Shown piece after piece: positions 25,343 to 35,955 of a stretch of 64,000 bases of DNA (within the stretch, counting starts at the first letter, position 1; each line of letters starts with the position of its first letter). This DNA comes from Paucibacter sp. TC2R-5 (GTDB lineage Bacteria; Pseudomonadota; Gammaproteobacteria; Burkholderiales; Burkholderiaceae_C). The notes under the pieces were generated by a model. That model saw only the letters and a list, made by a program, of their open reading frames with translations. It did no database searches and was not told the DNA's origin. A program made the translations under genes and the position numbers. The DNA lies in NCBI RefSeq assembly GCF_025717605.1, contig NZ_JAJIRQ010000004.1, forward strand, positions 70,804 to 134,803, in the 5' to 3' direction.

Positions 25343-26593
25343 TTATCCGCCCCAGCGCCCCCCGCTGCGGTGCCCCAGCAGCTCCGCCACATCGGTATCG
25401 GGCCGCCTGTCCTGCTGTACCGTTTCCAGCCGGGGAGAGAGCATTTCGTAGATCGGCAGCACGGCCGCGCCGAGGATGGAGCTGTCTCCTTGATGCTTGG
25501 ACAGCAGCAGGCGCAGCTGCGGGTCGCTGACGCCGCCGCGCACCGAGCGGCGCAGGGGAAGTGCTGCGGCCATGAGGCGTTCGACCAGCGCCTTGGGTGC
25601 GGCGCCGCCGATGATGATGGCGCCGGGGTCGAGCATGTTTTCAATCATGCAAATGGCGTCCCGCAGGCGTTCGCCGGCCTGGCGGCACCAGGCGTTGACG
25701 GTTTCGTCGCTGCTGTCTTCCAGCCGCGCCAGCAACTCGGGCGAATGCAGTTGCGGGTCTTCAATGCCCAGTGCTTCGGCCAGCGCATGCATGGAGACAT
25801 AGCGTTCCAGGCAGCCCGAATTGCCGCAGTAGCAGGGCAGGCCGCCCGGCACCACCGGCACATGGCCGAGCTCGGTTGCATTGCCGTTGGAGCCTCGGTA
25901 GGCCGTCCGATTGACGACCAGCGCCCCGCCCAGACCCAGACCCAGGTGGAGGTAGAAAAAGTTATCCAGCGATTTGGCGACCCCGAACAGCGTCTCGCCC
26001 AGGGCGCCGGCCACGCTGTCCACGCTATAGAACAGGGGCAGGCGGACCGCCTCGCGGAGCTCGTCCAGCAAAGACAAATCTGCCCAGCCCTCCATGGCCG
26101 TAGGCCCAAGAAAGCTGATGTCGGTGGCCCCCAGGGGCCCGGGCAGCGCGACGCCTATGCCCCATAGGCGCTCTCTGGCCCCTTTGCGCAGCTGCGTCAC
26201 CTGGGTCAGCATGGTGGCCAGCAGCTGTTGCCGGTGGCTGGTGTTGACCGCAGTTTCGGTGCGCTCCAGCACGTCTCCGACCAGGTTGACTCTTGCCGCC
26301 GATACGCGCCCGGGCTCCAGACTGATGCCGATGGCATGCCCGCCTTCGGGGTTCAGCTCGAAGGCCATTGGGGGCTGGCCCCGCAATTTGTCGCCTTTTT
26401 GGCGGCGCGACACGATCAGGCCTATCGACTCCAGGTCATTGGTGATGTTGACCACGGTCTGCGGGCTGAGCGAGACCATATCGGTGATGTCTTTGCGCGA
26501 GGCAGCGCCTTGCTGCCGAATGAAATCCAGCACCACGCGCCGGTTATAGGGCGCGCTCGATTGTTGGGTGGCGCCACGGCCGATATTTCGCAT
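25343..26593 (-). CDS. ROK family transcriptional repressor
   Basis: A 416-aa NagC/Mlc-type regulator. Residues 15-80 form a winged helix (NRRVVLDFIRQQGAASRKDI ... LSPQTVVNITNDLESIGLI). The rest is a ROK sugar-kinase fold: GIGVALPGPLG, YLHLGLGLGGALVVN, and the zinc motif CYCGNSGCLERYVS. The ELGH stretch with the zinc-binding His (NATELGHVPVVP) is present. A sugar or sugar phosphate should release it from DNA. It is upstream of and parallel to the kinase gene, and divergent from the GH9 gene, so it is well placed to control the whole locus. AGGAC is six bases before the ATG. Confidence 0.9.
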   Translation of the reverse strand: MRNIGRGATQQSSAPYNRRVVLDFIRQQGAASRKDITDMVSLSPQTVVNITNDLESIGLIVSRRQKGDKLRGQPPMAFELNPEGGHAIGISLEPGRVSAARVNLVGDVLERTETAVNTSHRQQLLATMLTQVTQLRKGARERLWGIGVALPGPLGATDISFLGPTAMEGWADLSLLDELREAVRLPLFYSVDSVAGALGETLFGVAKSLDNFFYLHLGLGLGGALVVNRTAYRGSNGNATELGHVPVVPGGLPCYCGNSGCLERYVSMHALAEALGIEDPQLHSPELLARLEDSSDETVNAWCRQAGERLRDAICMIENMLDPGAIIIGGAAPKALVERLMAAALPLRRSVRGGVSDPQLRLLLSKHQGDSSILGAAVLPIYEMLSPRLETVQQDRRPDTDVAELLGHRSGGRWGG

Positions 26594-34032: not shown

Positions 34033-34110
34033 GTCGCCGGCGCGAGCGGGCCGGAGCAAGCCATGCATTTGCCGCACAATGCGGGCCTTCGCCGCAGCCC
34101 CTCACGCTTG

Positions 34111-34349
34111 ATCCTAGATTCGGCAGTTGACCGCTCCCCAATGTGAATAGACATCGATGACCATTGAGAACACTCGCGTTTACGAAATTCACCAATCAGG
34201 TGAGAACGCTAATCGCCCGCCTGAGCCGAACCGGAACTCGCTGTACAGCGTTGCTTCTCCTCGTGGGCAGGAGCCCACTTCGTCGTCGCGCCTTGCCAGC
34301 AAGCCCCGGCTCGACTCCTTCGGGTGCTTTCAACTGCCGAATCTAGGAT
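34111..34349. repeat. Perfect 20-bp inverted repeat bounding a 199-bp segment (MITE-like)
   Basis: ATCCTAGATTCGGCAGTTGA (34111-34130) reappears as its exact reverse complement at 34330-34349. The enclosed 199 bases look less GC-rich than the flanks and hold short palindromes (CGCTGTACAGCG; GTGGGC-AGGA-GCCCAC). No clear target-site duplication borders it. The right arm contains the AGG and ATG of the ABC binding-protein gene. A small non-autonomous mobile element or an inverted duplication is possible. Short reading frames inside it are not convincing. Confidence 0.75.
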
Positions 34350-35955
34350 GAGTTCTCCAAATCCTGATCGCCGTCGCCTTCTGAGCAGCGCCATGCTGCT
34401 GGCCACGGGTGGCCTGACCGCTTGCGGCCATGTCGGCACGCCCAAGGACACGCTGGTGCAGGCCTTCGCCTTCGATGACATCACCAGCATGGACCCGGCC
34501 ACGTCCTTCGAGATCTCCGGCGGTGAGATCCTGGGCAACACCTACGAGCGCCTGGTGGGCTTTGATCTGGATGAACCCAGCCGCATCGTCGGGGTCTTGG
34601 CCGAGTCCTGGCAGATCTCAGCCGACGGGCTGGAGATCAGCTTCCAACTCAAGCCGGGCCTGCGTTTCGCTTCGGGCAATCCGCTCGGCGCCGAGGATGT
34701 GGTGTTCTCCTGGCAGCGGGCGGTGCGCATGGACAAGACGCCGGCCTTCATCTTGACCCAACTGGGTCTGAGCAAAAGCAATGTGGGCGAGCGCGTGCTG
34801 CAGACCGGCCCGCTGGCGCTGACGCTGCGCATCGGCAAGCCCTTTGCGCCCAGCTTTGTCTTGAATTGCCTGACCGCAACGGTGGCCTCGGTGCTGGACA
34901 AGCGGCTGCTCTTGGCCAAGGAGAAGGACGGCGATTTGGGTGCCGGCTGGCTGAAGCTCAACCACGCCGGCTCCGGCCCCTGGAAGCTGCGCGACTGGCG
35001 CGCTAACGAGATTTTGGTCATCGAACGTAATGATGTATTTCATGGCCCCAAGCCGGCGCTGACCCGCGTGATTTACCGCCATGTGAAGGAGGCCGCGACG
35101 CAGCGCCTGCTGCTGGAAAAAGGCGATGTGGACATCGCCCGCAACCTGGCGCCGCAAGATCTCGGCCCGCTGGCGGCGCAGCCAGGCATCTTGCTGACCC
35201 AGCAGGCCAAGGGCGTGGTGTATTACCTGGGGCTTAACCAGAGCAACCCGCTGCTGGCCAAGCCTGAGGTGCGCGAAGCCTTCAAATGGTTGGTGGACTA
35301 CGACGCCATTGGCGCCACCTTGATCAAGGGTATTGGCCGGCCGCATCAGAACTTTTTGCCGCAGGGACTGTTGGGTGCCAGCAGTGAGCAGCCCTTCAGG
35401 CTGGATGTGGCCAAGGCGCGCGCGCTGCTGGCCAAGGCCGGGCTGGCGGACGGCTTCAAGATCACGATGGATGTGCGCACGATTCAGCCGGTGATGGGCA
35501 TTGCCGAGGCCGTGCAGCAAACCGCTGCCCGCGCCGGCATAGCGATCGAGATCATCCCCGGTGACGGCAAGCAGGTGCTGACCAAATACCGCCAGCGTCG
35601 CCACGATATTTTCATCGGCGACTGGGGCACAGATTATTGGGACCCGCACAGCAATGCCGATACCTTCACTCGCAACCCCGATAACAGCGACGGCGCCAAG
35701 AACAAGCCGCTGAGTTGGCGCAATAGCTGGGACATCCCCGAGCTAACGCGTCAGACCGACGCTGCCGTGCTGGAGCATGACGGCGAGCGGCGGGTGCAGA
35801 TGTATGCGGCGCTGCAGGCCGAGTTCCGCAAGACCAGCCCCTTTGTGATGCTGTTCCAGCAGACGCAGGTGGCGGCGCTGCGCAAAGGCGTGCAGGGCTT
35901 CCGCTTGGGGCCCACTTCAGATACGACCTATATGGCGCCGGTGAGCAAGCTGTGA
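34348..35955 (+). CDS. ABC transporter substrate-binding lipoprotein, peptide/oligopeptide type
   Basis: A 535-aa SBP_bac_5 (DppA/OppA) protein. The N-terminus is a lipoprotein signal (DRRRLLSSAMLLATGGLTAC, lipid on the Cys of LTAC). The mature part has LVQAFAFDDITSMDPATSFE, the family signature GLEISFQLKPGLRFASGNPL, and EAFKWLVDYDAIGATLIKG. It should capture peptides or similar solutes in the periplasm for the four following proteins. The ATG at 34348 lies inside the right arm of the inverted repeat with an AGG touching it, so initiation may be weak; a GTG at 34324 is in frame upstream. The stop overlaps the next start (TGATG). Confidence 0.9.
   Translation: MSSPNPDRRRLLSSAMLLATGGLTACGHVGTPKDTLVQAFAFDDITSMDPATSFEISGGEILGNTYERLVGFDLDEPSRIVGVLAESWQISADGLEISFQLKPGLRFASGNPLGAEDVVFSWQRAVRMDKTPAFILTQLGLSKSNVGERVLQTGPLALTLRIGKPFAPSFVLNCLTATVASVLDKRLLLAKEKDGDLGAGWLKLNHAGSGPWKLRDWRANEILVIERNDVFHGPKPALTRVIYRHVKEAATQRLLLEKGDVDIARNLAPQDLGPLAAQPGILLTQQAKGVVYYLGLNQSNPLLAKPEVREAFKWLVDYDAIGATLIKGIGRPHQNFLPQGLLGASSEQPFRLDVAKARALLAKAGLADGFKITMDVRTIQPVMGIAEAVQQTAARAGIAIEIIPGDGKQVLTKYRQRRHDIFIGDWGTDYWDPHSNADTFTRNPDNSDGAKNKPLSWRNSWDIPELTRQTDAAVLEHDGERRVQMYAALQAEFRKTSPFVMLFQQTQVAALRKGVQGFRLGPTSDTTYMAPVSKL

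Follow-up and report, generated by a model that had tools for sequence, protein, structure and literature searches.

Results

The element and its insertion site

The window, i.e. the whole 64,000-nucleotide stretch of Paucibacter sp. TC2R-5 DNA analysed in this study, carries an ABC operon whose solute-binding protein gene (PF00496; 34348-35955, plus strand, with the start provisionally placed at the ATG) is followed by a permease gene (PF00528). The gene preceding the element described below encodes a PAS-GGDEF-EAL protein. In front of the operon lie two exact 20-bp arms of an inverted repeat (34111-34130 and 34330-34349), which are separated by a 199-bp spacer and can be extended to 31 nt at 87%. 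This repeat, pointed out in a preliminary description of the sequence, was confirmed: by our own estimate, which assumes equal base use, an exact 20-bp pair within ~300 bp is expected by chance ~2e-5 times per 64 kb. The right arm overlaps the ATG (34348-34350), the likely start of the SBP_bac_5 solute-binding protein.

Repeat and end-motif analysis placed the terminal inverted repeats proper in the 18 bases of each arm that face the spacer (34113-34130, plus strand, and 34330-34347, minus strand), since full matches in other genomes span positions 3 to 237 of the 239-bp query and stop there. The outermost AT/AT of the arms is flanking sequence, outside the 235-bp element (34113-34347, minus strand). 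Its folding strand (see below) reads from 34347 to 34113, opposite to the adjoining genes, and a covariance model matched it on the minus strand with 210.9 bits (G000:C34:104916-105150).

The binding-protein gene was found in 10 of the 18 genomes of the genus, that of the window counted. Three orthologues (L157, L158 and L159) could be aligned to their first base and all three lack the element; in the other six the match begins at least 68 bases inside the gene, so that the count of empty sites, whose presence upstream of orthologous operons the preliminary description had proposed to check, rests on these three. The empty site reads ...CTC(A/C)CGC-ATGA(G/A)TT... and the occupied site CACGC-TTGAT-[element]-ATGAG-TTC, a comparison which places the target around the start of the binding-protein gene. 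Because the element sits at the CGC-ATGA site, the ATG has been retained on its right. The right copy of the target (ATGAG, 34348-34352; ATGAG in L157 and L158, ATGAA in L159) is unchanged, while the altered left copy (TTGAT, 34108-34112) differs from ATGAG at positions 1 and 5, i.e. at two of five bases.

It had been suggested in the same description that the insertion swallowed the start codon and replaced the native promoter and ribosome-binding site. The first part does not hold, as the ATG is native and was kept; the second is borne out insofar as a promoter-like stretch now stands apart from the gene. This stretch, TTGCCGCACAATGCGGGCC (34069-34091, plus strand), is common to the window and these relatives, even to L157 with its different neighbouring gene, and we infer from this conservation that it is probably a promoter. 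With the element in this position, transcription from the old promoter would place ~235 additional bases ahead of the start codon, and the operon is accordingly predicted to have a longer leader.

Copies and distribution of the element family

The 239-bp query found matches in 16 of 59 genomes (the window genome included), with a maximum of 16 in one genome. Inverted pairs of the end motif were found, usually at a spacing of 234 bp; the pattern reversed as a control turned up once in each of two genomes. With the covariance model, 13 of the 18 genomes of the genus were matched at E <= 1e-5 (up to 22 matches per genome), and in the window genome it identified two full copies plus a single match to the rod only. 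The second full copy (C12:279236-279469) has identical flanks in a sister species (L002, L027), which indicates that copies can outlast speciation.

The family extends well beyond the genus. Model R1, for which at most 5 candidates per genome were scored, gave matches in 97 of 399 genomes and 48 of 159 genera of the order, and a class-wide search (E <= 1e-6) in 47 of 369 genomes, a few of which belong to the order, and in 39 of 272 genera. A pattern scan recovered at least 119 stretches, the genera among the matches listed including Ottowia, Rhodoferax, Denitromonas, Ramlibacter, Polaromonas, Nitrosomonas, Thiobacillus and Methylocaldum. Many of the assemblies searched are drafts. In Ramlibacter sp. 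H39-3-26 we counted at least 115 copies by the covariance model and 135 and 130 occurrences of the end motif on the two strands (none of the control pattern). These dispersed copies, together with the empty site before orthologous genes, support the earlier proposal of a MITE-type element without a transposase; a single conserved leader with no further copies, which had been named as the contrary finding, was looked for and is not what we see.

Full copies are also borne by plasmids of Caballeronia grimmiae and Polaromonas sp. P1-6. The former, which is unannotated, lies at 25509-25742 of the conjugative IncP plasmid p5 (NZ_CP084278.1; L451), and such a plasmid could possibly be a vehicle for the element between genera. 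In Roseateles oligotrophus an inverted pair of copies with the variant end core CCTCGG (L068, 2003-2236 and 5078-5311) flanks part of an ABC transporter cluster.

After removal of weak, cut-off and opposite-strand matches, 134 complete copies remained out of 196. A length of 234 nt is shared by 74 of the 134, and 117 fall within 233-236 nt; for part of these the scan pattern restricted the spacing across roughly half of the element, and the constancy of length is therefore overstated for scan-derived loci. Freely found order-wide R1 hits show the same lengths. The G+C content of the copies ranges from 44 to 71%. Exclusion of four copies with other end bases and of two duplicates left 128 distinct copies for the analysis of flanks.

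Target duplications and recent movement

Within the genus we compared the flanking 5-mers of 62 copies kept by tightened criteria (a looser version yielded 305 candidates, mostly chance): the two sides agree in 39, 51, 40, 55 and 50 copies at the successive positions, against 12-21 at control positions. In the wider set of 128 copies, which overlaps these 62, agreement reached 110, 118, 103, 115 and 106, with control values of 31-46. The frequent target sites are TTCAA, ATCAT, ATTAT and GTAAC. Many sites contain TGA or TAA, and the duplication may therefore preserve stop or start codons; according to our own simple gene caller the median distance to a gene is ~10 nt in a mixed set (n=152) and 18-45 nt in Ramlibacter. 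Perfect 5-bp duplications accompany 52 of the 62 copies present in 60 fetched regions of Ramlibacter sp. H39-3-26, where two pairs of identical copies were found, the members of each pair at different sites.

The element is a dispersed unit of near-fixed length with inverted-repeat ends, which generates a 5-bp duplication at WTNAW-like sites and has moved recently in some genomes. It conforms to a MITE in being small and multicopy, in having terminal inverted repeats and no transposase gene, and in its target duplication and empty site, the left duplication of the window copy being imperfect.

We also considered that bases might be carried over from the donor site. In the genus round, 58 of the 62 copies have complementary bases adjoining their two ends, and mismatches within the duplications fall mainly at positions 1 and 3. 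As a rule this was abandoned: complementarity falls to 102 of 128 in the wider set, and plain 5-bp duplications dominate there and likewise in Ramlibacter. Carry-over is a possible source of the altered left flank TTGAT in the window.

Ramlibacter harbours elements of 118, 176, 234-235 and 318 bp that share these ends, a coexistence to be expected if recognition involves nothing but the ends. The 118-bp elements (L351, 1740-1857 and 3125-3242; L443, 2533-2650) lack the rod described below, and each has its own 5-bp duplication. A second family, of 176 bp, which shares these ends and is flanked by perfect duplications, was observed in Ramlibacter sp. H39-3-26 (L344, 1342-1517; L433, L439, L440, L444, L445); it gives a weak covariance-model match on both strands.

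The candidate transposase

A transposase with ends of the same kind was found in genome G031, which holds both this enzyme and copies of the element. The protein (539 aa; PF13701, 59 bits) is encoded by an insertion sequence (locus L105) of 1648 bp in total, between CCTAAAAACCGCAGTTA and its inverted partner. The end of this IS is identical to the order-wide element consensus (A6) at 15 of 17 bases, and the duplication size is also that of the element (5 bp). Homologues of the L105 transposase occur in 19 of 299 genomes of the family; of the 29 loci recovered, seven are bounded by an end pair of the same type spanning 1630-1666 bp, and perfect 5-bp repeats flank three of these seven. ISs of this IS1380 subgroup therefore resemble the element in their CCTA...GCAGTT terminal repeats and 5-bp duplications; they differ in length, in carrying a transposase gene, which the element lacks, and in their interior. 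Among IS1380-family insertion sequences, ISEcp1 offers a further comparison for the ends. Two further IS1380 transposases, of Ottowia and Ramlibacter, have ends unrelated to the element.

The window genome contains no PF13701 transposase, and an autonomous partner of this kind is absent there. No L105 homologue was found in 47 of 50 carrier genomes, the other three giving partial matches only, and a PF13701 match of any kind was obtained in 7 of 14 named carriers. A transposase with the ends of the element was not found in the window genome, R. oligotrophus or Ramlibacter sp. H39-3-26, the last being the genome with the most recent copies. A search of 13 Ramlibacter regions plus L324 and L344 with the L105 transposase gave a sole hit, L353, which belongs to another genome. 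Twenty further regions, checked for paired ends only, contained elements of 112-120, 176, 234-235 and 319 bp and a few long end pairs without matching flanks, which were taken as chance.

These likenesses suggest that an IS1380-type enzyme mobilised the element family: a transposase of this subgroup, with ends like CCTARANNC.GCAGTT, would have acted in trans on the ends of the element and would since have gone missing from most carriers examined. It is also conceivable, if rather unlikely, that a transposase of another family with similar end recognition moves the element. The recent multiplication of copies in Ramlibacter and in R. oligotrophus, where no L105-type transposase was found, would fit such an enzyme; however, it would have to account for the agreement at 15 of 17 end positions and the equal duplication size, and our searches revealed no further autonomous element bounded by such ends (in the 20 Ramlibacter regions, by paired ends only).

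The folded interior

In the window, the predicted fold includes a rod domain (approximately 34206-34329) with an apical hairpin, GTGGGC/GCCCAC (helix 6; 34263-34278), and a short hairpin, TCACC/GGTGA (34189-34203), all on the minus strand. Folded by itself, the window copy reached -122.9 (z -8.9) as the minus strand and -96.7 (z -5.8) as the plus strand. For 55 copies, RNAalifold returned -20.1 kcal/mol for the strand corresponding to the window plus strand versus -80.3 for the minus strand. On the latter, 96.2% of 3024 cells pair (85.7% in shuffles), with double changes in 35 of 55 pairs (20.0 in shuffles) and 28-39% pairing for slid versions of the structure, which had been derived from the same rows that were used for these statistics.

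A sequence-only alignment of 45 order-wide copies, about half of them found with the structure model, so that some bias remains, gave -149.6 for the folding strand, -130.6 for its complement and -30.9 (sd 4.5) with columns shuffled. Full Watson-Crick exchanges occur at 54 of the 70 pairs, and on the minus strand 306 of 3140 cells are G-U versus 39 A-C. The interior does not encode a protein; its fold is kept on one strand through compensatory changes whose intermediates are G-U in preference to A-C.

The rod also occurs by itself. Matches of ~97 nt that cover only the rod (model positions 31-124) occur at C12:444518-444615 of the window genome and at other places. Common to them is the loop CAAGGCGCG...GCAACGC, in this form or as a close variant, but their outer stems differ. 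Such stand-alone hairpins were noted at L366 (1019-1116, the match of the window genome), L367, L368, L369 and L370.

We take the folding molecule to be RNA, i.e. the minus strand is predicted to act as RNA. Among 26 loci compared with Rfam 15 (E up to 1) there was no plausible match, only weak unrelated hits far below gathering scores. The folding strand lies opposite to tandem neighbours in 62 cases versus 25 in a mixed set (152 scored with our own gene caller; binomial p 9e-5), which, with the orientation in the window, counts against a simple read-through RNA. This could not be upheld as a general property, the ratio being reversed in Ramlibacter (7 versus 17; 54 scored, 5 copies of unclear strand left out; p 0.06).

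We regard it as improbable, though worth keeping in view, that the conserved strand works instead as single-stranded DNA, for example in movement or replication. There is no orientation preference towards transcription that is consistent across both samples, the terminal repeats form part of the stem, and G-T pairs are tolerated in DNA too. On the other hand, the substrate of DDE transposases, IS1380 among them, is double-stranded, and two of the rod-less 118-bp copies, which differ from each other at 8 positions, have moved, as their different duplications show; the rod is therefore dispensable in cis for movement.

Still less probable is an origin of the paired changes in template-switching correction of near-palindromes with no selection on the fold. 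Such correction does yield paired changes without function, but it leaves unexplained both the excess of G-U over A-C on one strand and the conserved unpaired loop common to rods with different stems.

The flipping unit of the preliminary description, an invertible switch in which the 199 bp would turn between the exact arms and control the operon, is very improbable: no inverted form was present among the sequences read, no recombinase among the three neighbouring proteins scanned, and dispersed copies, target duplications and empty sites account for the arms as ordinary terminal repeats. A conserved peptide of ~62 residues, for which an open frame ending within the right repeat was seen in many copies, was rejected on the present data, because the window copy is frameshifted and dN/dS is 0.98 in that frame versus 0.77-0.98 over the remaining five (calculated from 51 copies of 234 bp; L032 and L097 left out of the open-frame and dN/dS counts, and copies within 4 differences of another dropped, a step at which L032 was left out and L097 kept).

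Discussion

The locus is probably best explained by a MITE mobilised in trans by an IS1380-subgroup enzyme, carrying a minus-strand RNA fold and inserted at the start of the binding-protein gene.

Small mobile repeats with predicted secondary structure, like the element, include bcr1 of Bacillus cereus, NEMIS/Correia and ERIC. Their hosts differ from those of the element, and the likeness is one of description, with names and sizes as given in the consulted parts of two papers (PMC2267715, PMC3110155). TIMEs, the Tn3-derived MITEs, are similarly non-autonomous (262 bp), moved in trans and flanked by 5-6 bp duplications; in contrast, they have 38-bp Tn3-type ends and, in the sections consulted, usually one copy per genome (PMC4133298).

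The stand-alone ~97-nt rod may correspond to the published repeat BRE (Betaproteobacterial repeat element), which we likened to it by description and not by sequence. In the part available to us of the paper by Hot et al. (2011, PMC3110155), BRE is ~90 bp long, G+C-rich, mostly intergenic and present in several of the same genera, and a small RNA is made from one of its copies in Bordetella pertussis. The rod-only matches are like it in length, G+C, genomic setting and hosts. Unlike the element, also compared by description, BRE is presented in that part without terminal repeats or duplications. A description of the element family itself was not found among the open-licence PMC papers listed by our literature searches.

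Tentatively, and with less than even confidence, the family might be viewed as a functional minus-strand RNA propagated in the form of a DNA transposon and built on the rod module, with its fold selected across many genera and its transposase long gone from most of the hosts examined. MITEs are expected to decay internally after movement stops. Across many genera this family has kept both its length and a fold on one strand, in most cases with no transposase to be detected, which suggests that the RNA or the single strand has a function, either for the element or for its host. The element family may therefore be considered as a test case for the persistence of structured repeats, and the locus in Paucibacter sp. 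TC2R-5 as an example of a foreign structured leader, as predicted, in front of a transporter operon.
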